A stretch of 64,000 bases of DNA from DHVE2 group archaeon (GCA_026993785.1 JALWRZ010000010.1:275199-339198); one strand, 5' to 3'; positions 25,426-45,271 are shown, counted from the stretch's first letter. Numbers and translations are program-made. Notes: generated by a model not told the origin, from the letters alone.

Positions 25426-26094
25426 ATGAAAGAGAAGGTTATTCTCTCCTGGAGCGGCGGCAAGGATAGCGCCATGGCCCTCTATGAGCTACAACAATCG
25501 GCTAATTACGAAATATGCTCCCTGCTAACCACACTTACCAGAGATTACGATAGAATAAGCATGCACGGAGTCCGCCGCGCACTTCTTGAAAAGCAGGCGG
25601 AGAGCCTGGGTATTCCTCTTGAGAAGGTCTATATCGGTAAGAATGCCACCAATGAAGAGTACGAGAAAATAATGAAGGATGTGATGCTGAAATATAAAAA
25701 GATGGGCATATCCCTCGTAGCCTTCGGCGATATATTTCTTGAAGATGTACGAAGATATCGAGAATCAAATCTGGCAAAGATAGGGATGAGGGGGATCTTT
25801 CCCTTGTGGAATAGAAGCACTGGGGATCTCGCTTATAAGTTCATAGAGCTCGGATTCAGGGCAATTGTCACCATGGTAGACACCCAGTTCCTGGATGGCA
25901 GCTTTGTAGGCAGAGAATACAATGAAGAATTCTTAAACGATTTGCCAAGCGGCGTGGATCCCTGCGGCGAGAATGGAGAGTTTCATTCCTTTGTCTACGA
26001 TGGCCCCATCTTTCGAAGTCCTGTTCCTTTTAAGATCGGTGCCACGGTGCTTCGAGAAAATCGTTTCTATTTTGTGGATCTGGTGCCCCTTTAA
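25426..26094 (+). CDS. dph6: Diphthine--ammonia ligase (PP-loop ATPase)
   Basis: A 222-residue ATP-pyrophosphatase. The PP-loop is SWSGGKDSAMAL, followed by HGVRRALLEKQAESLGIPL and FGDIFLEDVRRYRE; the C-terminal GVDPCGENGEFHSFVYDGP is diagnostic. The enzyme performs the final amidation of diphthamide on elongation factor 2. ATG 25426 matches a TATA-like ATCTTTAAATTG centred 25 nt upstream. It sits inside the sugar region but is a housekeeping gene. Confidence 0.88.
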   Translation: MKEKVILSWSGGKDSAMALYELQQSANYEICSLLTTLTRDYDRISMHGVRRALLEKQAESLGIPLEKVYIGKNATNEEYEKIMKDVMLKYKKMGISLVAFGDIFLEDVRRYRESNLAKIGMRGIFPLWNRSTGDLAYKFIELGFRAIVTMVDTQFLDGSFVGREYNEEFLNDLPSGVDPCGENGEFHSFVYDGPIFRSPVPFKIGATVLRENRFYFVDLVPL

Positions 26095-26134
26095 ACTCCC
26101 AAACTCTTTTTCAATATTGATAGTTCGTGAAAAA

Positions 26135-26142
26135 AATTATAT
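26135..26142 (+). promoter_or_regulatory. TATA box, leaderless AglH-like gene
   Basis: AATTATAT lies 26 nt before ATG 26165 and marks that start rather than the long upstream extension of the frame. Confidence 0.55.
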
Positions 26143-26164
26143 CTGGCTAATAAATCCCTCTTTT

Positions 26165-27196
26165 ATGGATATTCCTTATTTGCCATCTCTCGCAATTTTC
26201 ACTCTGGCATTGATAGTTGCGTATGCAACTTCTTATATCCTGGCAAAGATGTGGATTCCGGCAGCTAAGTATTTCAAGCTGGTGGGAAAAGATATGAATA
26301 AATACGGACATCCAGAAGTGCCAGAGGCTGGAGGGGTCGCCGTTATATTTGGACTGGCGTTTGGACTCTTTACCTATCTTTTCTTAAAAGCTCTAGATGG
26401 CAGTTCTCAGCATCTAACAGCGATCTATGCTCTTATTTCCACGGTGTTATTAGCTGGGTTCTTGGGATTTGCAGATGATATACTTGGCTGGAAAAAAGGA
26501 ATTGCGCAAAAAAAGAAAGCTCTATTCTCCACAGCTTTAGCGCTACCTCTTATGACATTCACGCTCCTTCATTCTCAATATAATAGCTTTTCTAGCTGGG
26601 GTATACCTCTATGGGTATACGCTCTCATAATCGTTCCAATAGGCATAGTTGGCGCCTCTAATGCTATAAACATGGTGGCAGGCTATAATGGCCTAGAAGC
26701 AGGGTTGGGGATAATAACTCTCGTCACTTTATCTATAAAAGCCTATATGGATAGCAATTTTTGGATTATGTTCATGGCACTCATTGGAGTGGCTGCACTT
26801 TTGGGATTTCTAGCATTCAACTGGTATCCTGCTAAATTATTTCCGGGGGATTCGCTTACGTATCCTCTAGGAGCTTATATAGGTGCTCTTGTCATCTTAG
26901 GGAATATGGAAATATTCGGAGCGCTCTTATTTCCCATCTACTATTTAAAATTATATCTCTACATTAAAGCCAAAAAAATTGATAAGATTGGGGATATTGA
27001 TGAATTTGGGATCCCGAATGAAAATAATCATATTGAAATGCCCTCACAGAAAATTTATGGTGTTGCACATATAGTGATTCTTCTCCAAAAGAAACTAAGA
27101 GGATATGCTACTGAAAGAGGCGTTGTGACAACTTTGTATATATTCCATAGTTTAATATGTGGGATCGTTTTATCTCTGTATCTGTTAATGTATTAA
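26165..27196 (+). CDS. Polyprenyl-phosphate GlcNAc-1-phosphate transferase family (AglH/MraY-like)
   Basis: A 343-residue membrane protein with about ten TM helices. The family core is visible: PEAGGVAVIFGLAFG, LGFADDILGWKKGI with the paired aspartates, NAINMVAGYNGLEAGLG, and FPGDSLTYPLGA. Such enzymes start lipid-linked glycans by moving a sugar phosphate from a UDP-sugar to dolichyl phosphate. The EMPSQKIYG loop near residue 290 is also found in relatives. It opens the AT-rich glycan island. Confidence 0.88.
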   Translation: MDIPYLPSLAIFTLALIVAYATSYILAKMWIPAAKYFKLVGKDMNKYGHPEVPEAGGVAVIFGLAFGLFTYLFLKALDGSSQHLTAIYALISTVLLAGFLGFADDILGWKKGIAQKKKALFSTALALPLMTFTLLHSQYNSFSSWGIPLWVYALIIVPIGIVGASNAINMVAGYNGLEAGLGIITLVTLSIKAYMDSNFWIMFMALIGVAALLGFLAFNWYPAKLFPGDSLTYPLGAYIGALVILGNMEIFGALLFPIYYLKLYLYIKAKKIDKIGDIDEFGIPNENNHIEMPSQKIYGVAHIVILLQKKLRGYATERGVVTTLYIFHSLICGIVLSLYLLMY

Positions 27197-27213
27197 AATT
27201 AAGAGGTGAAGCT

Positions 27214-28335: not shown

Positions 28336-28357
28336 TACGAGATATTTCTCATTTTCA

Positions 28358-29386: not shown

Positions 29387-30576
29387 ACCTCCTGGTCATT
29401 ACCGATCGCTTTCCTCACCAATACGATCCTTATTCTGCTGCATTTGTTAAAGAATTAATAAACTATGAGAAATATTTTTTTGATCAGGTGTATGTTATTT
29501 CTCTCAATCCTTGGCTACCTTCGTTCATAGCAAAGAGATTGAATAATCCCAGATGGTATAGAGATTCTATTGCAACAGATTATTCGTATGATAATGTTTC
29601 AGTATATTTTGCTAAATACTTTACTGGAAAAGGTAAGTTTTTTCTTAGAAATAGGGATGCAACAGCCTACAAAAAAATTAAAAAAATCATTAAAAAAAAC
29701 AGCTTGCGATTTGATATAATTCATGCGCATTTTGTTCATCCTTCTGGTACAGCTGCATTAAAAATCAAAAAAGAGTTTAATAAGCCTCTAATAATCACTG
29801 GGCACGCACATGATATAAGAGAATATCCATTTATGGATCCAATACTTAAAGAGAAAATTCTAAATGCCCTTAATAACGCTGATGCATTTATAACAGTATC
29901 TCGAGATAATGCAGATAAGGTAAGAAAAATTGGATTTAAAGGATCCATCGAAATAATACCCAACGGTTTTGATCATAGGATTTTTCATCCTATTGATAAA
30001 TATGAATGCAGAAAAAGATTGCATCTACCATTTAACAAGAAAATAGCTGTTTCCGTGGCCCGTTTGATAGAAATTAAGGGATATGACTATCTAATCCAAT
30101 GTGTCAAGAAGATAGTAAAATCTAGGAAAGATATACTGTTTGTTATTGTGGGAGAGGGCCCAGTAGAAAATAATCTACAGCAAATGATTAGGGACTATGT
30201 TTTATCTGATTATATCAAAATGGTTGGTGCAAAGCCTCACGAAGAAATTCCGCTGTGGATTAATGCTGCAGATATATTTGTATTGCCAAGTCTAGATGAG
30301 GGAAATCCAACAGTGATGTTTGAATCCCTCGGATGCGGTATACCTTTCGTAGGTACTAAAGTTGGCGGTGTCCCAGAGATAATAACATCTGAGGATTACG
30401 GATTGCTTTGTGAGCCGCGGGACGTTGACTGTTTGGTGAAAAATATTCGGCTTGCTTTAGATAAAGAGTGGAATAGGGAGAAGATAGTAAAGTATGCCCA
30501 ACAATTTACTTGGGAAGGGATTGCCGATAGAACTTTAAAAATCTATCAAAGAGTTCTTAACTATTCTAACCACTGA
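29383..30576 (+). CDS. Glycosyltransferase, GT4 family
   Basis: A 397-residue GT-B enzyme with FDIIHAHFVHPSGTAAL, ITGHAHDIREYP, IPNGFDHRIFHPI, ARLIEIKGYDYLI and LPSLDEGNPTVMFESLGCGIPFVGT. GGAGG precedes ATG 29383, which overlaps the stop of the radical SAM gene. It converges on the sulfotransferase at 30561 with a 16-bp tail overlap. Probable role: extension of a lipid-linked glycan. Confidence 0.88.
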   Translation: MNLLVITDRFPHQYDPYSAAFVKELINYEKYFFDQVYVISLNPWLPSFIAKRLNNPRWYRDSIATDYSYDNVSVYFAKYFTGKGKFFLRNRDATAYKKIKKIIKKNSLRFDIIHAHFVHPSGTAALKIKKEFNKPLIITGHAHDIREYPFMDPILKEKILNALNNADAFITVSRDNADKVRKIGFKGSIEIIPNGFDHRIFHPIDKYECRKRLHLPFNKKIAVSVARLIEIKGYDYLIQCVKKIVKSRKDILFVIVGEGPVENNLQQMIRDYVLSDYIKMVGAKPHEEIPLWINAADIFVLPSLDEGNPTVMFESLGCGIPFVGTKVGGVPEIITSEDYGLLCEPRDVDCLVKNIRLALDKEWNREKIVKYAQQFTWEGIADRTLKIYQRVLNYSNH

Positions 30577-31442
30577 GACAAATCCCTGTTAATCATCTTG
30601 CTTAGTCTCTCAGTATGAGGTCTATAATATTCTATAAGTTTCTTTCGTGTTTCTGGATTCATGGGAGGATATTTAAAAGGTTTGCTGTTTATCTCACGAA
30701 ATTTCAGGTATATTTTATTAATAAAAATTCGCATCTCAGGAGGTAATCTTCTATAAATTTTTGCATGGAACCCCTCTGCCATTAAAAAGCGTTGTAGCCA
30801 TAATGCTTTTGATATAGAGGACACATTTCTTTTTCTTTTAAAATCAATATAAGAAACATCGGGAGTTGCACCAATCCATAACAATAATTTTCTTAAGGTT
30901 TCTGCAGGATTTGTTTTAAGATCTTCTGTTAAAATTATATAGATCTGCTCTTTAGGGAATACCTTGAAGTAATGTTCCAACTGTTCGTCATAATGACCAT
31001 GCTCAAGATATGTTAATATTCCTCTTTCTCTTAAAGTTCCATGCCTTCTCTCTTTCTCTTTTTCCAAAGCTTCTTCAAAAGTTTTACAAGTTTCAAAACC
31101 ATCTCTTACCGCTGCCCAATAGGCTGAGTAAGCTCGATCTACTGGGTTTCTAAGTATGGCTATCAATTTTATTTTTGGATTGTATTTGTATATTCTTTCA
31201 GCAACATAATAGAAATACAGAAGATTGACATCAGACCCACCTATAAATTTCTCGTCATTTAGATTTTTATATATTATATTTAAAATATCCTCTAACTGCT
31301 TATAATACTCATCTCTCTCAAAATATTGTATATCCTTTAACTCAGGCATAAATATTTCTGGATGTTGTGAAAGATAATAATGAAGCGAAGAACTCCCAGC
31401 TTTTTGCGCACCGATGATCATGAAATCTATTTTTCTTTTCAT
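30561..31442 (-). CDS. PAPS sulfotransferase, heparan N-sulfotransferase-like
   Basis: A 293-residue sulfotransferase related in pattern to glycan N- or O-sulfotransferases: 5' loop GAQKAGSSSLHYYLSQHP and 3' site LIAILRNPVDRAYSAYW, with FEEALEKE and YLEHGHYDEQLEHYF following as in heparan-sulfate enzymes. ATG 31442 follows GGTGAT and a TATA-like element near 31462-31470. Among the four sulfotransferases this looks most like one acting on a carbohydrate. Confidence 0.87.
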   Translation of the reverse strand: MKRKIDFMIIGAQKAGSSSLHYYLSQHPEIFMPELKDIQYFERDEYYKQLEDILNIIYKNLNDEKFIGGSDVNLLYFYYVAERIYKYNPKIKLIAILRNPVDRAYSAYWAAVRDGFETCKTFEEALEKEKERRHGTLRERGILTYLEHGHYDEQLEHYFKVFPKEQIYIILTEDLKTNPAETLRKLLLWIGATPDVSYIDFKRKRNVSSISKALWLQRFLMAEGFHAKIYRRLPPEMRIFINKIYLKFREINSKPFKYPPMNPETRKKLIEYYRPHTERLSKMINRDLSQWLE

Positions 31443-31556
31443 ATTAATCACCATTAGTTAGTAATATTTGATATCTGCACAAAAAGTTTTTGTTTAATGC
31501 TTGAGCATATAAATTTTTCGTCACTAAGGAGGCAGGATAAAAAGGATATCTAGAAT

Positions 31557-33458
31557 TCATTTATTAAAGACTATTAAATAGACTCTTTGACCTCCATTTG
31601 ATTGATAAATTTTCAAAAGATTTGGAGAGTTATCATATTTTTTCACAGGTAAAGCTGTATCATATCTAAAATGCTCATTATAACCCACCACCATATATCT
31701 GGTGGGCTTATAAGCATTGCAGAATACTTGCAAATTTAAAGTGTTTGGATTTCTCAATGCAGTATAAGTGATTACCCAAAGTTTATGATTCTTGAAATAT
31801 GTCACATACCTTTTTACTGGAGGCTTTATCCATGTTATTGCACCTAATGAATCTATAGAGTAATAATTTCCAAGTAGATACTCATCTTTTTCTGTAATAT
31901 GGTTTACATATATTGCAAAAGAGGGGGTTATTTCTTGAGCAGATATGGTGCCAAATCTTAACGGATTACTTATGTTAAAATTATCTCTTACGACCGGGTC
32001 TTTATTTATGGTAGTCACTGTTGATGTGCCCAAGAAAAGCGAAATTATGAGCAATAAAATAGTGAGTCTTATTGCTTTTCTAATATTACTTCCATTGAAT
32101 CCAATATTTGAACACTTTTTAAAGAGCATGCTCACACCACCTGCTAAAATAAAGGGTAGTATATAATTAAAATAAATTATTCTACTTGCATAGTATTTAT
32201 ATATAAATCCAAACATCCACCATATTATAAAAAATAATAAAAACATCATGCCTATATTTAAAAAAGAAAGGTTAGTTTTCCATTTCTTTAGTAACCCATA
32301 AATACTAAAAATAGAAAAAATATACGCAATAAATCCCACAGTGATTGAGAGAAGTGATATAAGTGGGAGGTTGTGAAATGGTAGATATAAAGGAAAAGGA
32401 GAGAATATTAAGGTAAAACTATAGTGATATTCTGTTGGGTTAAAAGTAACCGCATACAATGAATACAGATAAATGATTATATAGAGAGATATAATGCCTG
32501 CAATAAAAATGAGTTTTCCTCTTGATGATAAGGGCTCTGAAACTACTCTATCAAATTTCTTCTTCAAAAGAATCATAGATACTGGAAGTAATATGATTAA
32601 CCCACCCAATAGTATCTGCGGCAAGTTTCGTATAAATAATGGAGGGATAAATTTAGGAAAAAAATGGACTATGTGATAATTCTCTCCAAGAAGTGCAGGG
32701 TACATTGGAAAATAGTAAATAAAAAACACAAAGATCAAAGAGATATAGGTCAAGAAAAAATATTTAATACCAATATTTTTTAATTTTTCATTGCGTTTCA
32801 TGAATCCATATATGCTCAAGGATATGAAAAATAAGGAGAAGTTGAAAACAAAGCCCATATATGTACTAATGTGTGATATTCCATGCACAATTAGAAATAA
32901 GAGAAAAATTATATCAAAAATATAAAATTTCTTAGCACTCTTCAAAGAGAGCAAAAATACCACCAATGCGCCATATAGAGTAACTGATGTGATGTTTTGA
33001 GCAGCAACAGCATTGGTATTAACAAACATGTAAACATAATAACTTTTGGAATTTGTGAAAATAAAGAACGAAGTAATATAGAAAAATGCAGAGAACAATC
33101 CGATTTTCTTGCTTATTTTTAGTCCAGCTAAAAATACCAATAGAGTAGGTATAATTGCAAACATTATTTTGAATATAAAAGATATCAAATAAATATTAAA
33201 GGTACTTCCCATCAACATAAAAGAGGAAAGTAGCACATGAATCCCTGCTGGATATAATTCATATACTGCAGGATTATCCCAAACATGATAAAAATCGATG
33301 TTATGAGATGCTATTTGTCTAGCTCTTGCAAAATTTCTTAGCTCATCACTGCTATAGATGGTATTAAACCCCCAGAGATAATGAGTAAGAGTGTTTAATA
33401 TAATAGTTGTCATGATTAAAAGAATTAAACCCAATATCAACGATGCTTTTTTGTTCAT
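31557..33458 (-). CDS. Large membrane protein, possible GT-C glycosyltransferase
   Basis: A 633-residue polytopic protein with roughly 12-14 TM helices and a C-terminal soluble part (about 490-633). The first external loop has YSSDELRNFARAR, reminiscent of the acidic motif in GT-C transferases that use lipid-phosphate sugars. The WWDYG motif of oligosaccharyltransferase AglB/STT3 is not present. Its ATG overlaps the end of the upstream GT4 gene by 4 nt. A polymerase or ligase role is also possible. Confidence 0.6.
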   Translation of the reverse strand: MNKKASLILGLILLIMTTIILNTLTHYLWGFNTIYSSDELRNFARARQIASHNIDFYHVWDNPAVYELYPAGIHVLLSSFMLMGSTFNIYLISFIFKIMFAIIPTLLVFLAGLKISKKIGLFSAFFYITSFFIFTNSKSYYVYMFVNTNAVAAQNITSVTLYGALVVFLLSLKSAKKFYIFDIIFLLFLIVHGISHISTYMGFVFNFSLFFISLSIYGFMKRNEKLKNIGIKYFFLTYISLIFVFFIYYFPMYPALLGENYHIVHFFPKFIPPLFIRNLPQILLGGLIILLPVSMILLKKKFDRVVSEPLSSRGKLIFIAGIISLYIIIYLYSLYAVTFNPTEYHYSFTLIFSPFPLYLPFHNLPLISLLSITVGFIAYIFSIFSIYGLLKKWKTNLSFLNIGMMFLLFFIIWWMFGFIYKYYASRIIYFNYILPFILAGGVSMLFKKCSNIGFNGSNIRKAIRLTILLLIISLFLGTSTVTTINKDPVVRDNFNISNPLRFGTISAQEITPSFAIYVNHITEKDEYLLGNYYSIDSLGAITWIKPPVKRYVTYFKNHKLWVITYTALRNPNTLNLQVFCNAYKPTRYMVVGYNEHFRYDTALPVKKYDNSPNLLKIYQSNGGQRVYLIVFNK

Positions 33459-34663
33459 TTACTTTCCTCCATGTGCTCAACTAAACTCTTTGCGATATTC
33501 TTCCAATCATATTTCATTATTTCGCTCCAATTTCTCTCTAAATAAACTTTACTCTGCATCATTTTCAAAGCTATTTCCTCTGCCTTATTGTACTCATATT
33601 TCTCAAATACCCAGCCACTTTTTGTTTCATTTATAACCTCTGCAACCATGCTGTCTCTTGCAACAAATGCTAAAATTGGCACACCTGAGCGGAGGTATTC
33701 AGGTAACCGACTAGGAAACACATCCCAATAATCATATTTCATATTAAAAACTAACACATCTGCAGAAATAAGATACTGAATAATATCTTTATGCTGCCGC
33801 CGCCCTAAAATTTTTACTGATTTCAATTTCATTTTTTCTATTTTCTCTTTTTGGGATGGAGCAATGGATCCTATGAATAAAAGTTGAAAGTCATATCCTG
33901 CATTTTCAAACTTTTTAAACAAAGTAAGGAAAGAGAGATCAAACTGGCGATACACTGTTCCCATATGAAGAAATGTAAATTTTTCTAATTTTATTGGAGT
34001 GACCTTTTCAAAATCCTCTTCGTCATAGCCATTAGGAAGCCAGAAACTCTTATGTTGCAAATTAAGTTCTGGATATTTTTGGAAGTATCTTTTCATCTGA
34101 TACTTGCTTGCGAACGTTAATTTATCAGCAGTTTCAACTATTTTCTTCTCCATACTCTCTTCAAATTTTTTATGTAATAATGAGGGGGAAAAATAAAGAT
34201 GATTTTGTGTCCAAGGATCTGCAAAATCTACCATCCACTTTATTTTATCTCTCAGCCGTTTCTTAATTAGATATCCAAGAATTAGTCCAGAGGGGGGCGT
34301 AGACGTAAGTAAATACCTAATATTTAATCTCTCAATTAAACGAAGTATGTCCTTTAAATAAAGAAGCATATATCCTTTCAAATCAGGTAGTAAAAAAATT
34401 TTAAATGCTTTTGCAAGGTGAGCCTTGTTCAGAGAAGGATGAAGTTGTTTACCTATATAATAAACCTTTACACCATATTTTGATACATCCATATAAAGCT
34501 CCTCATCCCTTAAAGATTTAGGATGAGGCGGTGGAGCTATTACGATAGGCTCTACTCCGTAAAGAGGTAAATACTTTGCAATTTTACTCAATCTTAATAT
34601 CTGTGCCCTAAATTCTGGAGGCCATCCTAGCTGAGAAATTAATAGCATTTTTTTTGAGTTCAT
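33455..34663 (-). CDS. Glycosyltransferase, GT4-like
   Basis: A 402-residue GT-B protein. The N-terminus LLISQLGWPPEFRAQILRLSKIAKYL and WMVDFADPWTQNH match the Fut/WcaI-like GT4 subgroup, followed by LPNGYDEEDFEKV, FLHMGTVYRQFDLSFL, and FPSRLPEYLRSGVPILAF. It is the first gene of a minus-strand unit with the membrane protein and sulfotransferase. A TATA element at 34684-34697 sits 25 nt before the leaderless ATG. Confidence 0.82.
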   Translation of the reverse strand: MNSKKMLLISQLGWPPEFRAQILRLSKIAKYLPLYGVEPIVIAPPPHPKSLRDEELYMDVSKYGVKVYYIGKQLHPSLNKAHLAKAFKIFLLPDLKGYMLLYLKDILRLIERLNIRYLLTSTPPSGLILGYLIKKRLRDKIKWMVDFADPWTQNHLYFSPSLLHKKFEESMEKKIVETADKLTFASKYQMKRYFQKYPELNLQHKSFWLPNGYDEEDFEKVTPIKLEKFTFLHMGTVYRQFDLSFLTLFKKFENAGYDFQLLFIGSIAPSQKEKIEKMKLKSVKILGRRQHKDIIQYLISADVLVFNMKYDYWDVFPSRLPEYLRSGVPILAFVARDSMVAEVINETKSGWVFEKYEYNKAEEIALKMMQSKVYLERNWSEIMKYDWKNIAKSLVEHMEESK

Positions 34664-34683
34664 TCATGCTCTAAAAGATTTTG

Positions 34684-34736
34684 AGATATATAAATCTAAT
34701 CAGATTTTACCTTTCAACGAATAGGAAAATTTATTA
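34684..34736. promoter_or_regulatory. Divergent TATA promoters
   Basis: GATTTATATATCTC (minus strand, 34684-34697) serves the glycosyltransferase at 34663, and AAATTTATTA (plus, about 34726-34736) serves the sulfotransferase at 34760. Both lie about 25 nt from their start codons. Confidence 0.5.
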
Positions 34737-34759
34737 TCTGTAATTTTTTTAAAAGGCAT

Positions 34760-35668
34760 ATGGCAGATCCATCAAAAACTATAATAATTGCAGGATCACC
34801 ACGCAGTGGAACTACCTTGCTTCTAGATTTGTTAGGTGCATCATTGAAATATAGAAAAGTTTTTGAGCCGCTTCATCCCTTGAATGTTAAAGGGGCTCAA
34901 AACTTTTATTATCTCTATGTAAGGCCTGAGGAGGATCGTCCAGACCTAGAATCCTTTATGAAAAAAGCCCTTACTGGTAAAATAAATACCCCATGGACCA
35001 ATGAGATGGGTATTGTAAAAGACGTAAAAACTTTTTTAAAGATGCTGTTAAAGATTCACAAGTGGCGGTGGTGGGCGCCTAATAGAATAATGAAAATAAT
35101 TCGTGGAAACCTTATGTTAGGATGGCTTGAAAAGACATTCGGATGCAAGATAGTGTTTATTATGAGACATCCATGCGCTGTTATTGAATCTCAGAAAAGA
35201 ATAGGTTGGGAAAAAGATAGAGAAGCAGAACTTATTAGGGTTGTATCTCAAGTGAAACTTATAGAAGATTATTTACAGCCATTCCAAAGAGATATTGAAA
35301 GGATAGTAAAAGTAGGAGATTATTGGGAAAAAAGTGCTCTTTTGTGGTCTATTGAAAATATGGTGCCCCTAAAGCAGATGAAAGCAGGCCATCTTCATGC
35401 TTTACTTATTTTCTATGAAAATCTTATTCTGAATCCTAGAGAAGAAGCTGCCAAGATAGAAAAATATACAGGAATAAAAAAGATAAATTTAAGTGCCTTG
35501 CTACATCCATCTAGCACAGCTGATAAACGCACATTTAGCACTTCCAAAAAAAAGATGCTAGCAAAATGGAAAGATAGGTTATTAGATGAAGAGGCCTCTA
35601 AAATATTAAGTATAGTAAAAAAAATGGAGATACCAATCTATGACTATGATCTATTGCCACACTTATAG
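34760..35668 (+). CDS. PAPS-type sulfotransferase
   Basis: A 302-residue sulfotransferase: 5' loop AGSPRSGTTLLLDLLG, 3' site KIVFIMRHPCAVIESQKR, and the C-terminal LLIFYENLILNPREEA region that ends the fold. It stands alone between two opposing units of the glycan island. The acceptor is unknown, but neighbours suggest a surface sugar. Confidence 0.85.
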   Translation: MADPSKTIIIAGSPRSGTTLLLDLLGASLKYRKVFEPLHPLNVKGAQNFYYLYVRPEEDRPDLESFMKKALTGKINTPWTNEMGIVKDVKTFLKMLLKIHKWRWWAPNRIMKIIRGNLMLGWLEKTFGCKIVFIMRHPCAVIESQKRIGWEKDREAELIRVVSQVKLIEDYLQPFQRDIERIVKVGDYWEKSALLWSIENMVPLKQMKAGHLHALLIFYENLILNPREEAAKIEKYTGIKKINLSALLHPSSTADKRTFSTSKKKMLAKWKDRLLDEEASKILSIVKKMEIPIYDYDLLPHL

Positions 35669-35704
35669 ATATATTCCCTTTTAAGTATATATATAAAAAT
35701 ACTT

Positions 35705-36934
35705 CTATGCACTTATTATCTTTTTATATTTCCTATAAAGCATGATGTTAGTTACAACTGTTGATCCAAAAGCTGCTACATATGCCCAAGGAACTCCTAT
35801 TTTTCCTATGGTGTTTATTAAGTAAATAGCAAGTATAAGGTTAACTCCAGCAGCAATACCAACACTAGTAGCAGCATATTCTGGTTTATTTACACCACCC
35901 CAAAATGCACCAAAAGCAGTTTCAATAACTCGAAATATATATCCTATCGAAAGAATTAATAAAATATAATATGAATTAATATATTTTAGACCAAAAAGAA
36001 TTTCTAATCCCAATTTTCCAAAAATTATAATAATAGTATATACTAAAATTACATAGAGAATATTAAGAATAATTGCCTCTTTCAGTCTATAAGAGTTAAT
36101 ACTAAAGCCTCCATCAGCCACTTTAGGCATAAGTAGAGTGTTTACAGATTTGGGAAGGAATGTATATAAAGTTGCTAGAGTTAAGGCCATGGAGTACTCA
36201 GCAACTGCAGCATATCCATAATCACACTCTAATAGCCAGTATCCTACAGTAATTAAAGAAGAAGAAAAAACATTAGAAAGTACAGAAAATGTTGAAAATC
36301 TTGCCAGTTGAAAAATTATCTTCTTCTTGATTCTCTTAAGATTAAAATGAATATTAGTTCTTATAAATATTTCTATTAAAAAGATGGCAATCCAACCACT
36401 AAATGCATATGATCCAATAATGTAAATTGGGATTTTAAGGACTGTAATCACTAAAATAAGACTTATTAAAGCTAATATAATTCCTCCTCTCAGGATATTA
36501 AATAATGCTATTTTCTTGTAATCAATAAATCCTCGAATTACCCCATAATAAATCAGAGAAATAGAATACCCAATCACAACCATATATATTAGGATATCAA
36601 TATGAAAAACTAAAAAGATTGGTACCAAAATCAGAAAAGATAGAAGCATTATGACAATCACTGCTGTGAAATACTTGTCCACTTCGCTTCTTTGAGCTGC
36701 CACAAATCTTGTAAGAGCTGAAGAGAATCCAGCGGCAATAAACATAACAATGAAATTACCTATCTGGAGTATATATCTAATATACCCATATTCTTCTTTA
36801 CTCAAAATCCATGCTAAGATCAATGATACAAAAAATAACACACCCTGAAAAATTATATTACTAATGCTAAGCATACCTACGGACTTAAGAGTTTTTTTAT
36901 TAATTAATATCTTCTTAGAAATGAGCTTTTTCAT
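35705..36934 (-). CDS. Polysaccharide flippase, Wzx/MATE-like
   Basis: A 409-residue protein with about 12 TM helices of the polysaccharide biosynthesis/MOP type. N-terminal LKSVGMLSISNIIFQGVLFFVSLILAWILSKEEYGYIRY is the family pattern, with FVAAQRSEVDKY after the second helix. It would flip the lipid-linked glycan across the membrane. Start overlaps the archaeosortase end by 20 nt, so the two are translated from one message. Confidence 0.85.
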   Translation of the reverse strand: MKKLISKKILINKKTLKSVGMLSISNIIFQGVLFFVSLILAWILSKEEYGYIRYILQIGNFIVMFIAAGFSSALTRFVAAQRSEVDKYFTAVIVIMLLSFLILVPIFLVFHIDILIYMVVIGYSISLIYYGVIRGFIDYKKIALFNILRGGIILALISLILVITVLKIPIYIIGSYAFSGWIAIFLIEIFIRTNIHFNLKRIKKKIIFQLARFSTFSVLSNVFSSSLITVGYWLLECDYGYAAVAEYSMALTLATLYTFLPKSVNTLLMPKVADGGFSINSYRLKEAIILNILYVILVYTIIIIFGKLGLEILFGLKYINSYYILLILSIGYIFRVIETAFGAFWGGVNKPEYAATSVGIAAGVNLILAIYLINTIGKIGVPWAYVAAFGSTVVTNIMLYRKYKKIISA

Positions 36935-37934
36935 GATTATCCGACCCCGGCGATTTATTGAATTTCAGATCTACCAAATACCAATATGGAATAATAAACA
37001 AGAGAGATATAACATTGCCAAGCCATGCATGAGCTTCCTGCAATCCCTGCTGCCCATAATAGTATGCAGTCACAAAAATCAGGCATATTCTGAGAACATT
37101 CAAAAAGAACATAACTATTGCTGCAAGAGTTATGGCTATAATCCTCAATCTATAAGAAATATAGGAACCCATAAAAAGCAAAATAAGTATAACAATAGAA
37201 AATGTAATTCCCTCAACACCTGAACACAGTCCTGCTATAGTTGCAGATACTTTAGAGCCATTGATAGTTATAATGGTTATAGTGGTTCCTTGGAGATATA
37301 CTGGATATCCGAAGAATCTCAGCATTCCATAAGCCATCCTCGATGATGCTGTAGCAAGATTGATTCCGATTGCCGATCTTCCCAATACATTCCAGAGAAA
37401 ATTAAGAATTATAAATATCCCGTAGAGCAAGCCATAAGAAATAATCGTTTGGTATTTTCTTACTCCATAAAAAATTAGAAATACTCCAAAAATAAACATT
37501 CCTCCATTCAATACCCCAAAAATGCGTGTGTCAGGGAAATAAATGTGTTTTATGGGAGTCACAATAGTAAATGATGAGATTATGACTACTATTCCCATAA
37601 TAATTTCCCACAAGCGTACCTCTTTAATCTTATAAAATGCCCTATAATTTATGGCCATACCCATTAACCAGAGAAGGGTAGAAATAGCTAAGGTATAACT
37701 ATTTATGTTATCAGGAAGATTCCGTATTCCCCCCCAAATGACTATTTCCAGAAGCCCAGAAATAATAAGGACTAAAATCAAAAATATTTTTAATTTCTTT
37801 TCAGGTGAAATATTAAATTTCTTGGTTAGATAGCCCCACACATCGTAGTTCAGAATTCCGTGCTCTTCCGAATTCACAGGGAGAGAAAAGAATAGAGATA
37901 AATTAAGTTTCCTCTTTTGACATGATATCACCAA
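36915..37934 (-). CDS. Archaeosortase (exosortase family transpeptidase)
   Basis: An integral membrane protein with about nine TM helices and the three family residues in place: C237 in AGLCSGVEG, R282 in FFLNVLRIC, and H302 in EAHAWLGN (numbered from the first possible start). Archaeosortases cut and re-anchor surface proteins at a C-terminal tripartite tail. The start is unresolved: TTG 37934, GTG 37931 and GTG 37877 are options, and a TATA box at about 37937-37950 would place transcription near 37920, inside the first two. A likely substrate lies divergently at 38345. Confidence 0.85.
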   Translation of the reverse strand: MVISCQKRKLNLSLFFSLPVNSEEHGILNYDVWGYLTKKFNISPEKKLKIFLILVLIISGLLEIVIWGGIRNLPDNINSYTLAISTLLWLMGMAINYRAFYKIKEVRLWEIIMGIVVIISSFTIVTPIKHIYFPDTRIFGVLNGGMFIFGVFLIFYGVRKYQTIISYGLLYGIFIILNFLWNVLGRSAIGINLATASSRMAYGMLRFFGYPVYLQGTTITIITINGSKVSATIAGLCSGVEGITFSIVILILLFMGSYISYRLRIIAITLAAIVMFFLNVLRICLIFVTAYYYGQQGLQEAHAWLGNVISLLFIIPYWYLVDLKFNKSPGSDNHEKAHF

Positions 37935-38003
37935 AACAAATTTATTTAAGTATGTTTCCCTTCTTTTAAGAAATCGTAAGAGATGATAGATGATGAAGTC
38001 TAA

Positions 38004-38219
38004 AATATCTCGCTTGATATTGCCAAATTTGACTATGAAGGTTGTGAATACTCTCTCCTCTCTGTGCCCTGTGAAATTTTGAGAAAGGTGTCAAAATATG
38101 TGATTGAGTATCATAGAGGATTTGCTCCTCTCAAAAAGAAGTTTGAAAAGTGCGGATACCGTGTAAAGCATTTGTGGAAAATACAGGAAAGAATTGGAGG
38201 TTTAAAGGCAGAAATATAA
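38004..38219 (+). pseudogene. FkbM-family methyltransferase C-terminal remnant
   Basis: A frame after a TAA at 38001 reads ISLDIAKFDYEGCEYSLLSV, then VSKYVIEYHRGFAPLKKKFEKCGYRVKHLW, ending with TAA at 38217. The pattern D-x-EGxE...LL followed by a strand ending in EYH and a C-terminal GY-V segment is the FkbM methyltransferase C-terminus. The SAM-binding N-terminal half is absent and no start codon fits, so it is a fragment. FkbM enzymes methylate sugars in glycan loci. Confidence 0.65.
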
Positions 38220-38344
38220 CCTTATTTAAATTAAAATCTTAAAAGTTATTATAGTATAATAAATATTCTTGGAATATTTAGTTAATCTGATTTGAAATTA
38301 AAAATTATATACACCAAAATCCATGAGTGCATGGTGATTAAAGA

Positions 38345-40078
38345 ATGCCCCAGACAGTGTGTATAGGGATTATAGTCTTCCTGATAATTTCTAGTTTCAC
38401 TATTCTTCCAGTGCCGATACCTAGTAGAGATGCCAAAGTATCGGCGCCTGCCCAGCTTACTGTACTCGATGTACCGTTCAACAGTGAGGTGCAGGTAAAT
38501 AAATATATAGGGTATTACTACCATTTTCCAACTGATATGATTAAAAATCTGAGTTATTCTTATGACTCAAACGAAAATGCAGCAAAACTCAGTGTTACAT
38601 ATCCATACACAGGGCATTTTGCGCTGGGAGGGTTTACACCAGCACTCGAAACAAACATTAGTTTAGAGGTGAAAATGATAGACTATGGATTTAACAATGG
38701 TGCCTTTTCCTTAGAAAGCTATCAGATTTATCTTGCTTTAGCAAACTATCCATCAACATCTAAATATAAATTCTTTGTATATTACTACAATGATACTGGA
38801 TTACAAGCTATGTATCAGAATGGTCCAGTAGGATACTATAATAAATATGTGAAGATTGAGATTTCATGGTATGCAAATAGGACATACCACTATGCCTTTT
38901 GCGCGGAGAATGGTACCGTATTCTGGCAAGGATGGATAAAAACTAGACAGGATTACAACTATACTGAGCAACAATCAATGTTTGCTCCGTTCATAATGAT
39001 GGACTTTTACCCTGGTTCTGGAATGACAAATGGAGCAACATACTCTATGTACCTCAAGAATCTTACGCAGACAATCCCGCTTCAAAGTTCAAATAATGTG
39101 TTCGGATATATACCACAGCACACTTATGCAGCTCTAGGTTTCGATCATATATACAAGGGAACATACAAGAATGTTACACCTGCATTACGTCAATACGGAT
39201 ATCATGCCACCTACTTTTGGGATACAAACAATGAAAATACGAGTAACGGATGGAATGATAGTATAATGAAAGACGCTATTGAGCATGGTGATGAGTTTGG
39301 AATACATCTTAGCAATAAGTTTGACAGTTACAATGCATCTAACATAGTGGAAATAAATAAGGAGGTTAGGATCCTCATTTCAAAAGCAGAGAGTCTTGGT
39401 TGGAAGAATAGCTCATTTGTATGGACTTCTTTAGGTAACCAGTATGCATGGCAGTATAATGATTACATGTGGGAACAATGGAACGCAGTAGGCCGCAAAA
39501 TTTGGGGCCATAGTTTTGGTTATCAGGGTTATTTGAGCAATCATGATGTTGGATTAAACGTGCAATTTGCAGCAGAGAGAGGCTGGAGTTGGATTGCGTA
39601 TACCCATTGCGTTGGTTCTATATGGGTAGATGGACAATACCACAGCGATATTACACCTGCACAGTTTGATTCGTTCCTTGCTAACAACAGCAAGAATAAT
39701 ATCCACGTCGTTGGTTACTTCGAGTACTGGAGCAGATATGCAGCACCCTGGTGGGTAAGCGGCACAGTTATAAAGATTACGGAGCAGGATTACAAAGTCA
39801 CGGTACGATATGACAAGTTCATAGTTCCAAACGGATTCAGAGTAGCAGTGAAAATCATAGGTTTGAACGCAAGCAATTTAGTAATACACGATAACACCCT
39901 GGACACAAATATAACTGATTACAATATCTACGACTGGGGTATAGTGTTCGAAGCTCATGACGGGCACACATATGAAATCTATGAAGAAAATAACATTCCT
40001 GAATTTTCACTTACTTTCGTTCCCCTTATCTTCACAATAATATTGGCTACATTTATCAGAAGATTGAAAATAGATTAA
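38345..40078 (+). CDS. Secreted PEF-CTERM protein with deacetylase-like domain
   Basis: A 577-residue exported protein. An N-terminal signal (about 4-25) precedes a beta-rich lectin-like region (about 35-265). A polysaccharide-deacetylase-like domain follows (about 275-470: ALGFDHIYKGTYKNVTPALRQYGYHATYFW, DAIEHGDEFGIHLSNK), but its DD and HxxxH metal motifs are incomplete. The tail is IPEFS (PEF at 552-554), a 16-residue hydrophobic helix and RRLKID, a PEF-CTERM signal for archaeosortase. About 15 N-x-S/T sequons are present. GGTGAT precedes ATG 38345. It is divergent from the archaeosortase gene. Confidence 0.85.
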   Translation: MPQTVCIGIIVFLIISSFTILPVPIPSRDAKVSAPAQLTVLDVPFNSEVQVNKYIGYYYHFPTDMIKNLSYSYDSNENAAKLSVTYPYTGHFALGGFTPALETNISLEVKMIDYGFNNGAFSLESYQIYLALANYPSTSKYKFFVYYYNDTGLQAMYQNGPVGYYNKYVKIEISWYANRTYHYAFCAENGTVFWQGWIKTRQDYNYTEQQSMFAPFIMMDFYPGSGMTNGATYSMYLKNLTQTIPLQSSNNVFGYIPQHTYAALGFDHIYKGTYKNVTPALRQYGYHATYFWDTNNENTSNGWNDSIMKDAIEHGDEFGIHLSNKFDSYNASNIVEINKEVRILISKAESLGWKNSSFVWTSLGNQYAWQYNDYMWEQWNAVGRKIWGHSFGYQGYLSNHDVGLNVQFAAERGWSWIAYTHCVGSIWVDGQYHSDITPAQFDSFLANNSKNNIHVVGYFEYWSRYAAPWWVSGTVIKITEQDYKVTVRYDKFIVPNGFRVAVKIIGLNASNLVIHDNTLDTNITDYNIYDWGIVFEAHDGHTYEIYEENNIPEFSLTFVPLIFTIILATFIRRLKID

Positions 40079-40592
40079 CTTTCCCTTGGTAAGACGTGCA
40101 GTATCTCCGAAGAGCAATGGTTCAAAGGAGAGAGGAGAGCAAGAAAGGATATGCAAAACTTCTCGAACTGTGACATTGTGCTAAAGGAATAGAGTTTGAG
40201 TATCTCATCTCTGTACTGTTTTGCCTAGTTTAGTAGTTTTGAAGTATCACTAGGGTAGAACTACTTTCTTTCCCATCTTGATGATATTCATCCTATAGAA
40301 ATACATATAATATCCTATAAGGATATTTACTCTTAGGGTCTGTAATTGTAAAGAACAGAGAGACTGGAGTATAGAAGAAAATCGAGAAATGGTTTTTCTC
40401 AACCCTTCTCACCTTCCCGATTTTCTCAAAAAAATTAAAGTAAGAAAGTGTGAAGAGATCATGCAACTTGATGGAATGCTTGGGGGAGAGATGCAAGAAG
40501 GAAGTAGGCATATCTCATAGAGAGAAAGAGAGGCTTGATAATCTCGATATACATATAAAACAGGGGCAAAAAGAGGCAAAAGATGGGGGATC
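40079..40592. other. Intergenic, no gene recognised
   Basis: About 510 bp between the PEF-CTERM gene and the first ATPase. Short frames exist (for example from ATG 40450) but none matches a family I know. Short stretches such as GERRARKDMQNFSNC read like decayed coding sequence. No transposase, tRNA or clear repeat is visible. Confidence 0.4.
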
Positions 40593-41837
40593 TTATTCTA
40601 TTCCCAGCAACCACTTCCACAATGGGATATAATTTATCTCTCCCTCCCCCTCATAATCCCATGTTATCACGGTCTTCCTCTTACACCCTAACTCTTCCAC
40701 AGCTTTACCCAAGGCTCTTATCTCTCGCCTATCAATTTCATCTTTCCCGCTTGCGTAAGTTACCTGGATGCACTCTTCCACTTTCGTATTATTTACCAGA
40801 ACAAAATCAACTTCCCCAATTCTATCGTTAAAATAAAACAAGTTTCTGTTTGGCATATAACCTCTCTTTACTAATTCTGAAAATACCAGACCTTCCATTA
40901 GCTTTCCCGCATCCTCTCTTCTCTCAATATAGGTGTATAAACCATTATCCACCAAGAAACTCTTAGGAACCGACAGCTCCATTTTTCTGTAGCTAAAATC
41001 ATATTTTCTCAGGAAGAAGCATAGGAAAACATCCTCCAGATACCTCTGAAAATTGTAAAGTGTGTCTTTTCCTATCTTCACACCTCTTGATTTAAGCGTA
41101 TTGTACACTTTGTTTGTTGAAAACTGCTTTGTATGCGAGGCTATTGCAGAGCGTATGAACAGCTCAAGTGCAGCTCTATTGCGCACCCCATACCTTTCCT
41201 CTATGTCCTTGTGAATCACGAGATCTATGTATTCTGCAAAAAATGCGCTGGGTACAATGTTTCTGAGAACAATATCGGGAAAGAATCCCTTTTTCATACG
41301 CTCACTTATAATATGCTTTAATTTCGATTCTGTGTAGGAGGATACGATATTATCAATTTTCACATTTTCTATCTTCAATATCTCTGCAAAGGAAAATGGA
41401 TATATGCTAGTTGTTTTTGTTCTGCCCCTTAACTCGGTTGCAATCTCCCTGCTTAAAAATCTGGAGTTGGAACCCGTTATGAACATAATATATCTCTTTT
41501 TCTCATAAAGCGCGTAAATAGGCTTTTTCCAGTTCTCCACCTCCTGTATCTCATCAAAGAAAAGGTATCTGGGGAATTTGCCATATATCTCATTGTGCAG
41601 ATGCGGAACCTCAAGAGGATCTACATCAATTTCAGCAAAGTTAACAAATGCATAATTCTCATCCCTAAGATTGTGAGTCTTTATAAAATGATATAAAAAA
41701 TAACTCTTTCCTGCCCTGCGTGGACCTACAATCGAGTTTATGAAATTAACATTCTCATCTATTTTAACAAGCCTGTCCTTTACATCTATGCCTCGAATCT
41801 CTTCCTTGCGGTCCACAAAGTATCTTTTCACATCCAT
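40593..41837 (-). CDS. AAA ATPase with DUF4143-type domain, paralogue 1
   Basis: A 414-residue ATPase. Walker A is GPRRAGKSYFLYH, Walker B YLFFDEIQEVENW, then the TGSNSRFLSREIATELRGR sensor stretch. The C-terminal part carries GEVDFVLVNNTKVEECIQVTYASGKDEI, like a degenerate nuclease-type fold of DUF4143 proteins (Gln where active nucleases have Lys). Function of the family is not established. Its 3' end is close to those of the three paralogues at 42531, 43983 and 45272. Confidence 0.85.
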   Translation of the reverse strand: MDVKRYFVDRKEEIRGIDVKDRLVKIDENVNFINSIVGPRRAGKSYFLYHFIKTHNLRDENYAFVNFAEIDVDPLEVPHLHNEIYGKFPRYLFFDEIQEVENWKKPIYALYEKKRYIMFITGSNSRFLSREIATELRGRTKTTSIYPFSFAEILKIENVKIDNIVSSYTESKLKHIISERMKKGFFPDIVLRNIVPSAFFAEYIDLVIHKDIEERYGVRNRAALELFIRSAIASHTKQFSTNKVYNTLKSRGVKIGKDTLYNFQRYLEDVFLCFFLRKYDFSYRKMELSVPKSFLVDNGLYTYIERREDAGKLMEGLVFSELVKRGYMPNRNLFYFNDRIGEVDFVLVNNTKVEECIQVTYASGKDEIDRREIRALGKAVEELGCKRKTVITWDYEGEGEINYIPLWKWLLGIE

Positions 41838-41915
41838 ATCTACATATATAAGGAAATTGTTAATAAATATTTCCCTACAAATAAGGAAAAATATACTTGC
41901 GAATCATTTGGCTCA

Positions 41916-42029
41916 TTACTCTTCCCTCAGAGCTTTCCGCAGCTCTTTCTTATAGCTCCAGTAAATAACAGTCTTATTCTTGTATCTCAATTCCTCGTTT
42001 GCTTTTTGCAAAGCTTCTCTCAATTTCAT
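41916..42029 (-). pseudogene. Remnant of ATPase C-terminus
   Basis: A 37-residue frame reads LREALQKANEELRYKNKTVIYW followed by a divergent tail. It parallels the conserved end of the ATPases (ALEKAAEELRCKKKTVITWDYE). The rest of the gene is missing; a fifth copy seems to have decayed here. Confidence 0.55.
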
Positions 42030-42075
42030 ATTTAGCAAGAAAAACTTTAAAATAGAATAAGATGATATTTAAAAT

Positions 42076-42288
42076 ATGGAAAAAAAAGAATTTACTGTGC
42101 TAATAGAGAAGGATGAGGACGGATATTATGTGGGAGAAGTAATTGAGTTACCCGGATGTTTTACACAGGCAAAAACCTTGGAAGAGCTTATGAAAAGAAT
42201 AAAAGAAGCCATAGCCCTTTATCTTGAAGAGATGGGAGAAGTAGAGATAAAACACCAGTTCATAGGAATACAGAAGGTAACTGCATGA
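42076..42288 (+). CDS. hicB: HicB-family antitoxin
   Basis: A 70-residue HicB-type protein: FTVLIEKDEDGYYVGEVIELPGCFTQAKTLEELMKRIKEAI is the RNase H-like partial fold of the family. It lacks a C-terminal DNA-binding domain. It overlaps hicA by 4 nt. The pair forms a toxin-antitoxin module between two ATPase genes. Confidence 0.85.
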   Translation: MEKKEFTVLIEKDEDGYYVGEVIELPGCFTQAKTLEELMKRIKEAIALYLEEMGEVEIKHQFIGIQKVTA

Positions 42289-42515
42289 GGAAACTCACTC
42301 CCTTACCAGCAGAGAGGGTTATTAAAGCACTTGAGAAGATAGGTTTTGTCCCCGTTAGGCAGAGAGGATCTCATATTATTTTGAAAAATGAGGCGGGAAC
42401 TATGATAGTTGTGCCTAACCATGCAGGGGAGGAAATTGGGCGGGGATTATTGATGAAAATAATAAAACAGGCAGGTATAACAAAGGAGAAATTTCTGGAA
42501 CTTGTTGAAAAATAG
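42285..42515 (+). CDS. hicA: HicA-family mRNA interferase toxin
   Basis: A 76-residue HicA toxin with a dsRNA-binding-like fold: LPAERVIKALEKIGFVPVRQRGSHIILKN, where the conserved histidine of GSH is catalytic, then VPNHAGEEIGRGLLMKIIKQAGI. It should cleave mRNA when free of HicB. Translationally coupled to hicB through ATGA. Confidence 0.9.
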   Translation: MRKLTPLPAERVIKALEKIGFVPVRQRGSHIILKNEAGTMIVVPNHAGEEIGRGLLMKIIKQAGITKEKFLELVEK

Positions 42516-42530
42516 AAGAGAAAATTACTG

Positions 42531-43805
42531 TTAACCCATAATATTCTGAGTTTCTATCTCCAGCAGCCATCTCCAAAGTGGAACAAAATTTATCTCTCCC
42601 TCCTCCTCATAATCCCAAGTTATTACTGTCTTTTTCTTGCATCTCAATTCCTCCGCTGCTTTCTCTACTGCTCTTATCTCTCTTCTCTCTATCTCATCCT
42701 TAGCGCTTGCGTAAGTTACCTGGATGCATTCTCTTATCTCTGAGCCTTCTTTTATTACGAAATCTACCTCTCTCTGCTGGTAATCTTTCCAGTAGTATAT
42801 CTCCCATCCGTTATGCCAATAAGATCTTCTCCTCATGAGTTCTATCGCAACGATATTCTCTATACTCTGCCCCAGATTCCTGGAAATTCTAAAACCCAAA
42901 TTCATGAATCCTGGATCGGTAGTATAAACTTTCTTTGCACTCTTCACCGATCTCTTAAAAGAGGGATCAAATTTTGTTAAAGTGAAAAATAGATACCCTT
43001 CATTCAGATACTCAACAAAATTCTTCGTAGTGTGTTCACTACCAAGATTGAAGGTATTTTTCAATTTATTGTAAGATACATATTTTCCCACATTCGCAAG
43101 CAAATAGTATGCTATCTCTCTAAATGTAGATTCTTCCCTTATTCTATATCTAGAGATTATGTCTTTCTCTATTATGTCCTCAAAAAGCGCTCGAAGATAA
43201 ATTCTTGGGTTCTCTCCTTCGACAACTATCTCCGGAAAGCCCCCAGCATTCATATACTCTTCCAACTCCCTTTTTATTAATGCTCTCCCTCTTGTTGTCT
43301 CGGTATTCTCTTTAAAATTTCTTGCCTCTATGTACTCTCTGAAAGAAAAAGGATAAATTTCCATATCTATATGTCTGCCGGTTAGCCTATCAGCCAGCTC
43401 TCTGCTCAACATTTTTGAATTTGAGCCCGTGATGAAAACATTGTACCCTGCTCTGTGAAGTTTATTTACAAAAAGCTCCCATCCATTCATGTTCTGGATC
43501 TCATCAAAGAAAAAAGTATCAACATTCCCATAAACTTCAATTAGCTTGGCCAATATCTCATTTGGCTCAGTGCTAAGAAGTATCTTCTCATCAAAATTTG
43601 CATACGCAAATTTCTTGTTTCTAAGAAGTAAATAGGTTGAGAAAGATTTGCCGCTTCTCCTTATTCCCATTGTGACCTTTATAAGTCTGCTCTTCATAAA
43701 TTCTCTGTACTCTCTTTCAAATTCTCTTTTAACAACATTCCTTACCCTCTTGTATTTCTCCTCAAGCTCATATCTCTGATCCGCTAGCACGATTTTTAGC
43801 TCCAT
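42531..43805 (-). CDS. AAA ATPase with DUF4143-type domain, paralogue 2
   Basis: A 424-residue ATPase: Walker A GIRRSGKSFSTYL, Walker B TFFFDEIQNMNGWE, then FITGSNSKMLSRELADRLTGRH. The C-terminal domain has YWKDYQQREVDFVIKEGSEIRECIQVTYAS. Its last 240 or so bases (42565-42805) match 45315-45555 nearly base for base, without gaps, while the N-terminal halves differ, pointing to gene conversion. Confidence 0.85.
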   Translation of the reverse strand: MELKIVLADQRYELEEKYKRVRNVVKREFEREYREFMKSRLIKVTMGIRRSGKSFSTYLLLRNKKFAYANFDEKILLSTEPNEILAKLIEVYGNVDTFFFDEIQNMNGWELFVNKLHRAGYNVFITGSNSKMLSRELADRLTGRHIDMEIYPFSFREYIEARNFKENTETTRGRALIKRELEEYMNAGGFPEIVVEGENPRIYLRALFEDIIEKDIISRYRIREESTFREIAYYLLANVGKYVSYNKLKNTFNLGSEHTTKNFVEYLNEGYLFFTLTKFDPSFKRSVKSAKKVYTTDPGFMNLGFRISRNLGQSIENIVAIELMRRRSYWHNGWEIYYWKDYQQREVDFVIKEGSEIRECIQVTYASAKDEIERREIRAVEKAAEELRCKKKTVITWDYEEEGEINFVPLWRWLLEIETQNIMG

Positions 43806-43982
43806 ATATAATCATATTGCGAACTTTTATTTAAATATTCGCAGTAATAGTGCGTTAATTATTAACCATCTCCACGACGTGATATGTCTAATCTCCTATA
43901 GAATTTCAATACGTATTATATCAAGATGGCGTGCAGAAAAACGCTTCAGGATGCAGAAGAGTTTATCTGAGTGCACAAACCC

Positions 43983-45260
43983 TTATTTTATCTCCAGCAA
44001 CCACTTCCACAATGGGATATAATTTATCTCTCCCTCTTCCTCGTAATCCCAAGTTATCACCGTCTTTTTCTTGCATCTCAGCTCTTCGCTTGCCTTCTCC
44101 AACGCTTTTATCTCTCTTTCTTTTATCTCCTCTCTCCCGTAGGTAACCTGAATGAGCTCATCTACCCTTGAGCCTTTAACTACCACAAAATCAACCTCTC
44201 TCTGCTGCTGATCTTTCCAGTAATATATTTTTCCCGCTCTTCTTCTTAATAGTTCCACAGCCACGAGATTTTCCATAAGCCTTCCTCTATCTTCTGAGAA
44301 CTTAAATCCAAAATAATTAACAAATCCTGTATCAACACAATATACCTTGCGAGGATGCTGAATCTGGTCCTTTATTTTAAAAGAGTAAACCATCGTATCA
44401 AAGAATAGAAAAGCGTCCTTCATATAATAAAAATATTTCTCAAGCGTGGGTACGGAGATTTTTATGCCCCGTGATGCAAGGATCCTGGATAATTTTGAGA
44501 AACTCACATTTTTTCCAGAGAGGGAAGTAAGTAAATAGGCTAAATCCTCCAAAACTGCAGGATTCTTAACGAGCGGAGAGACATCCCTCATAATGATATC
44601 TGTAAACAGGGTTTCAATATACTCTTCTTTATTATCCCTCAGAACAACCTCCGGAAAGCCCCCATACTCAATATACTCCTCCAGAAGTTTTTTTATTCTT
44701 GCAATATCCTGCTCTGTTAGAACCTCCGGCACCTCAAATCCCTTGAACCCAAGAAACTCTTTAAAACTGAGGGGAAAAACATAGGTGGTTATATGCCTCC
44801 CAGTTAAAAGCATACTTAATGAGGATTTGGTTAATTTTGAAGTAGATCCCGATACAAATATCTTAACCTTATCTCTAAACTCATCATAAAGGCTCCTTAC
44901 AAACCGCTCCCATCCTTCTATCCTCTGCACCTCATCCAAAAAAATGTAAAGTTTGTTTTCAAGCAGATCCTCCCCATAGATTATCTCAACTAAATCATTA
45001 AAATACTCGGGAGTGAGCGGATTCAGCAATCTCCTCTCAAAATTCACATAAAGCGTCTGACTCTTATCCACACCGCTCTCAAGCAATTTTTTTATGATCA
45101 AATACATAAAGTACGTTTTTCCTGCACGGCGAGGCCCTACAATATCTACTATCAGATTAGAGGATAAATCAACTTTTAAGTCTCTCTCACGAACATCGGG
45201 CAAATTTTTTCTACGATATTCCTCAACAAGCATCATCAACTTATCTTTATGATTTTTCAT
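43983..45260 (-). CDS. AAA ATPase with DUF4143-type domain, paralogue 3
   Basis: A 425-residue ATPase: Walker A GPRRAGKTYFMY, Walker B YIFLDEVQRIEGW, then SGSTSKLTKSSLSMLLTGRH. The C-terminal half contains FSEDRGRLMENLVAVELLRRRAG and YYWKDQQQREVDFVVVKG. The SEDRGRLMENLVAVELLRRR segment is nearly identical in DNA to paralogue 4 (44263-44297 against 45600-45634), although the flanks differ. Confidence 0.85.
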   Translation of the reverse strand: MKNHKDKLMMLVEEYRRKNLPDVRERDLKVDLSSNLIVDIVGPRRAGKTYFMYLIIKKLLESGVDKSQTLYVNFERRLLNPLTPEYFNDLVEIIYGEDLLENKLYIFLDEVQRIEGWERFVRSLYDEFRDKVKIFVSGSTSKLTKSSLSMLLTGRHITTYVFPLSFKEFLGFKGFEVPEVLTEQDIARIKKLLEEYIEYGGFPEVVLRDNKEEYIETLFTDIIMRDVSPLVKNPAVLEDLAYLLTSLSGKNVSFSKLSRILASRGIKISVPTLEKYFYYMKDAFLFFDTMVYSFKIKDQIQHPRKVYCVDTGFVNYFGFKFSEDRGRLMENLVAVELLRRRAGKIYYWKDQQQREVDFVVVKGSRVDELIQVTYGREEIKEREIKALEKASEELRCKKKTVITWDYEEEGEINYIPLWKWLLEIK

Positions 45261-45271
45261 ATTATCATTAA

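Follow-up and report, generated by a model that had tools for sequence, protein, structure and literature searches.

A divergent, flippase-linked archaeosortase beside one of several PEF-type tailed proteins in a DHVE2-group archaeon

We analyzed a stretch of 64 000 nucleotides (the window) from the 1.66-Mb, 99.8% complete genome of a DHVE2-group member of the phylum Thermoplasmatota. The GC content drops sharply at positions 26000–46000 (30–39% from 26 to 46 kb, compared with mostly 41–49% in the flanks), and this drop marks a glycan island containing glycosyltransferases, a WecA/MraY-type starter enzyme, two sulfotransferases and a flippase. An archaeosortase gene and the gene for an exported protein of 577 aa lie within this low-GC island in divergent orientation. 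The features are as follows, with the evidence for each in parentheses.

25973..27196, + strand: WecA/MraY-type glycan starter enzyme at the island edge (PF00953, 6.4e-32)
30561..31454, – strand: sulfotransferase (PF00685, 7.2e-16)
31557..33458, – strand: polytopic protein of 633 aa (37% identity over 644 positions to P0001)
33455..34663, – strand: group 1 glycosyltransferase (PF00534, 8.7e-14)
34760..35668, + strand: sulfotransferase (PF00685, 1.6e-10)
35705..36934, – strand: Wzx/MATE-type flippase (PF01943, 8e-18)
36915..37934, – strand: divergent archaeosortase, not ArtC (PF09721, 1.5e-16)
37224–37226, 37089–37091 and 37029–37031, – strand: codons of the putative catalytic residues C237, R282 and H302, respectively (alignment)
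38004..38219, + strand: remnant of an FkbM-type methyltransferase gene, C-terminal 71 codons, between the archaeosortase and tailed-protein genes (tblastn)
38345..40078, + strand: exported protein of 577 aa with 15 sequons and a C-terminal PE-type tail (sequence features)
39125..39307, + strand: polysaccharide-deacetylase-like half domain (PF01522, 24.4 bits against a cut-off of 23.1)
39995..40078, + strand: C-terminal tail IPEFSLTFVPLIFTIILATFIRRLKID plus stop (TIGR03024, 12.4 bits; family-trained model, 20.9 bits)

The archaeosortase passed the superfamily cut-offs of both PF09721 (61 bits, cut-off 25.7) and TIGR04178 (44.2 bits, cut-off 23), and contains at least seven hydrophobic segments. 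The Cys, Arg and His triad described in an earlier note on this DNA was recovered as C237, R282 and H302, which were invariant across seven aligned homologues; family membership and these conserved residues suggest a membrane cysteine peptidase or transpeptidase. The start codon (TTG, 37934) is uncertain, and an alternative GTG at 37877 better matches the N-terminus of the ortholog in the DHVE2 genome G021. We rejected the assignment of the enzyme to archaeosortase C (ArtC), as its score against TIGR03762 was 49.6 bits, compared with a cut-off of 100; its two orthologues, from G009 and G021, scored 62–63 bits, and two ArtC-bearing relatives scored 341 and 361 bits. Tree building with 29 Thermoplasmatota sequences gave the window-type enzyme a clade of its own (100/99), the branching of which among the other archaeosortases is not fixed by this tree. 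This type was present in three DHVE2 genomes (the window genome, G009 and G021), and ArtC was found in G004, which we take to be Aciduliprofundum boonei-like, G033 and G039. Profile searches found no second archaeosortase in the window genome. Relatives of the enzyme in a collection of named genomes were confined to a single DHVE2 MAG, in what is evidently the G021 locus, and none were found in viral contigs. The AlphaFold model of the enzyme (pLDDT 49.7) was too poor for use.

Among the other genes of the island, the polytopic protein of 633 aa had no Pfam or NCBIfam match; a homologue (37% identical) sits immediately after the flippase in G009, and the protein is perhaps a GT-C-type glycosyltransferase. 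The methyltransferase remnant showed 74% identity (1e-30, tblastn) to an intact FkbM-type gene (L077:18443-19288, PF05050) that is part of an A. boonei-like ArtC locus, and its position between the archaeosortase and the tailed-protein genes is a sign of rearrangement. Further along, four tandem AAA_14/DUF4143 ATPase genes (40593–46564, – strand) share a near-identical C-terminal motif (ITWDYEEEGEI..PLWKWLL), and copies of this kind also adjoin the archaeosortase loci of G009 (L075:5346-8009) and G033 (L079:2704-3996). Approximately 5 kb from the G009 archaeosortase lies an asparagine-synthase-type amidotransferase (L075:3024-4916, – strand; TIGR01536, 490 bits), which scored 408 bits against the XrtA/PEP-CTERM amidotransferase model TIGR03108, under the cut-off of that model; its proximity to the enzyme recalls bacterial exosortase loci.

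The protein of 577 aa contains a hydrophobic N-terminus (residues 5–23), IPEF from residue 551, a C-terminal helix (553–571) and the terminal sequence RRLKID, and shows the PEF-CTERM architecture of signal sequence, PEF motif, helix and basic end. It carries exactly 15 N-X-S/T sites, compared with 6.1 in shuffled sequence (P = 0.00035), and this enrichment suggests that the protein may be heavily glycosylated or sulfated. The earlier note had likewise reported an exported divergent protein ending in IPEFS, a helix and RRLKID, about 15 sequons and nearby sulfation and flippase genes, all of which were borne out (sulfotransferases at 30561–31454 and 34760–35668, flippase at 35705–36934). The PF01522 match, the flippase overlap and the methyltransferase remnant are features beyond that note. 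The PF01522 match covers half the profile, and the Asp-His-His metal-site motifs of this CE4 domain appeared degenerate by eye: GFDH replaces TFDD, and motif 2 is without the second His. Homologues of the protein were not detected in 390 genomes of the phylum, including those with an orthologous archaeosortase, and no relatives were found in viral contigs, PDB or plasmids. Its AlphaFold model (pLDDT 36.8) was also too poor for use.

We then asked whether the tail is genuine. Against the PEF-CTERM model TIGR03024, it scored 12.4 bits, below the curated cut-off of 23, which two other tails of the same genome passed at 25.1–25.2 bits in one search and 25.4–25.5 bits in another. However, with a lineage model trained on 37 tails, all from DHVE2 genomes other than the window genome, the neighbour tail scored 20.9 bits (E = 6e-6 among 398 C-termini), whereas the next-best C-terminus of the window reached only 2.1 bits. 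With this difference, we rejected the possibilities that the tail is a chance resemblance or that it is any ordinary anchor. One A. boonei-like C-terminus showed a weaker resemblance to the model (16 bits). The sequence thus indicates that the PEF-type tail of the neighbour is genuine.

The genome contains 24 IPEF-coding sites, compared with 13 for the reversed control pattern; three sites fall 25–27 codons ahead of the stop codon in long ORFs for exported proteins, and all three of these belong to helix-plus-basic tails. Searches detected other PE tails at C11:15707, C1:100863, C10:162111 and C14:68812, and samples of the genome added two more (L206:11705-13618 on contig C8 and L211:13607-15457 on contig C14), with tail classes in the samples set by a simple hydropathy rule. 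At least seven exported proteins, including the neighbour, accordingly carry PE[FLI] tails for one archaeosortase, a lower bound obtained from searches and 20-kb samples. The absence of any other PEF-CTERM protein, which the earlier note had named as evidence against its reading, is therefore not what was found: there are at least six others.

The conserved partner of the archaeosortase is the flippase gene, not the gene of the tailed protein. The flippase gene overlaps the 3' end of the archaeosortase gene in five of the six DHVE2 archaeosortase loci, the exception being G004; the overlap is 19 bases in G009, 20 in the window and 23 in G021, G033 and G039, so that the same order is common to true ArtC loci (G033 and G039) and the window type. 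Such overlap points to co-expression of the two genes. The flippases share only about 22–28% identity between lineages, compared with 94% between G033 and G039, which indicates that the arrangement itself has been kept and is not a recent copy. ArtC and the window-type enzyme were together in no DHVE2 genome; this exclusion, in combination with the shared flippase arrangement, suggests that they are interchangeable enzymes with one job. At the other Thermoplasmatota archaeosortase loci that we examined, no such flippase was seen within about 1.5 kb of flank.

We further compared the distributions of tails and enzyme. PE[FL] tails were found in all 18 DHVE2-family genomes and an archaeosortase in 6 of the 18 (two models), and the two thus do not share one distribution. 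The mean number of tail hits per genome was 6.5 with an archaeosortase and 6.0 without (P = 0.78). When only tails above the curated cut-off were counted, there was a weak trend toward more in enzyme-bearing genomes (P = 0.10), which was driven by the ArtC genomes; high-scoring tails were few in the three window-type genomes. In G021, which has the enzyme, and G013, which lacks it (96% complete), a stretch of 525 aa is 98% identical and ends in the tail in both (PEFSSMALPLL... and PEFSSIALPLL..., respectively). In an unbiased 269-kb sample of the archaeosortase-free G017, the motif was present on 6 of 10 C-terminal anchors, compared with 0.57 expected by shuffling. The tails are likewise kept in G024 and other DHVE2 genomes without a recognisable exosortase or archaeosortase. 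The weak TIGR04178 matches in the enzyme-free genomes all fell below the cut-off, and a loose C..R..H scan returned one match, which was spurious. Most of these relatives are draft MAGs, from which glycan islands could be missing; it is unlikely, however, that incompleteness accounts for the missing enzyme in every genome, given its absence in several at 93–96% completeness.

The earlier note had tied this tail type to a dedicated sortase. The archaeosortase and the tail are both real, whereas a dedicated enzyme–substrate pair, in which the enzyme serves mainly the adjacent protein, is unlikely, and we would give it only a slim chance. Such a pair would account for the adjacency of the two genes, their divergent orientation, the tail and the shared low-GC island, and a polysaccharide deacetylase gene can occur in bacterial exosortase loci (Nitrosomonas eutropha, PMC7468200). 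However, neither orthologous locus (G009 and G021) has a tailed neighbour, the protein of 577 aa is an orphan among the 390 phylum genomes even where the orthologous enzyme is present, its tail is similar to those found elsewhere in the genome, and the methyltransferase remnant lies between the two genes. The presence of tails in all 18 family genomes but of an archaeosortase in only 6, the failure of the enzyme to group with the PEF-CTERM-associated family archaeosortase C, and its conserved association with the flippase also disfavor the pairing.

The explanation that we favor, which we consider about as likely to be right as wrong, is that an island-borne, flippase-linked and dispensable archaeosortase acts on the PE[FL] tails of the lineage generally, with the neighbour as one of the substrates. 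The conserved catalytic residues, the mutual replacement of ArtC and the window-type enzyme beside the same flippase, the additional tails in the genome, the fit of the neighbour tail to the lineage model and the orphan status of the neighbour are consistent with this explanation. Against it, the tails do not track the enzyme, one virtually unchanged protein keeps its tail in G013 where no archaeosortase was found, and high-scoring tails are scarce in the window-type genomes. The first two of these observations, together with the motif-bearing anchors of G017 and the flippase as the conserved link of the enzyme, argue for a rival explanation that we consider quite possible, though probably not correct: tails and archaeosortase have separate functions in this lineage. 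In that case, the PE[FL] tail would be a plain membrane anchor, or DHVE2 archaea would share an unrelated enzyme that handles it, and the archaeosortase would have a different target connected with the glycan island. Yet the orthologous loci show no other substrate, the literature links PEF-CTERM to ArtC, which is functionally close to the window enzyme, and many of the genomes are draft MAGs from which glycan islands may be missing.

Archaeosortases cut at the tail motif and may hand the new C-terminus to an acceptor. The window archaeosortase is part of the low-GC glycan island and is encoded with the flippase gene that overlaps its 3' end; according to the favored explanation, its most likely substrates would be PE[FL]-type tails in general. 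Cleavage would take place close to the PE motif, on the outer side of the membrane, with release of the helix, and the new C-terminus would then go to an acceptor, which may be a lipid or a lipid-linked glycan. What we observed are sequence features, gene order and distribution, whereas cleavage, substrate range and acceptor are inferred. The position of the neighbour would be a product of shuffling inside the island and no mark of a dedicated pair. Since most relatives lack an archaeosortase and yet keep the tails, the enzyme would be an accessory one. The two genes are best regarded as those of a divergent archaeosortase with a flippase link and of one of several PEF-type tailed proteins, which happens to be encoded beside it.

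The decarboxylase PssD was not found in the DHVE2 genomes, save for one weak, broken match in G004, which makes an acceptor other than an ethanolamine lipid likely, if transfer happens at all, and the flippase link suggests a lipid-linked glycan as a candidate. We offer, as a speculation with a small chance of being correct, the idea that the overlapping archaeosortase and flippase genes form one functional unit. A glycan carried on a lipid, and possibly sulfated, would reach the outer membrane face through the flippase and would then serve the archaeosortase, instead of an ethanolamine lipid, as the acceptor for the cut C-terminus, yielding glycolipid-anchored archaeal surface proteins. To our knowledge, no acceptor has so far been identified for archaeosortases other than ArtA, for which the clue came from the gene neighbourhood. 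The archaeosortase–flippase overlap in two divergent enzyme lineages may similarly point at a glycan-lipid acceptor, and makes the idea testable. In addition, the retention of a sorting-type tail by a lineage in which no sorting enzyme can be recognised means either that an enzyme remains to be discovered or that PEF-type tails should not be taken as proof of archaeosortase processing.

With respect to known systems, the PorU sortase of type IX secretion is a distant precedent, in that a protein C-terminus is attached to a glycan carried on a lipid (PMC7468200), a role on which we only speculate for the flippase link; PorU belongs to an unrelated enzyme family and an outer-membrane system. In the bacterial exosortase (EpsH/XrtA)/PEP-CTERM system, as in DHVE2, the enzyme gene sits within a polysaccharide locus and many tailed proteins are encoded elsewhere (PMC1569441); however, the phylogenetic profile of the enzyme there coincides with that of the tails (PMC1569441), unlike in DHVE2. 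ArtA of Haloferax volcanii, which acts with PGF-CTERM, is also a polytopic membrane cysteine enzyme associated with a motif–helix–basic tail, but the motif in the window is PE, not PGF, and the neighbouring gene encodes a flippase and is not pssA or pssD. Transfer to the ArtA acceptor depends on these two ethanolamine-lipid genes, and lipid genes adjoining in some methanogens had hinted at that acceptor (PMC7157517). Another close system is ArtC (TIGR03762) with PEF-CTERM (TIGR03024), which are paired in two reports (PMC5244752, PMC9723798). The window enzyme differs from ArtC in falling far short of the family cut-off and in forming a separate clade, the adjacent tail scores under the PEF-CTERM cut-off, and the tails of the lineage do not follow the enzyme. 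The window enzyme and ArtC share the superfamily, the catalytic residues, the kind of tail and the order of archaea, and the ArtC genes of G033 and G039 have the same flippase neighbour as the window enzyme.
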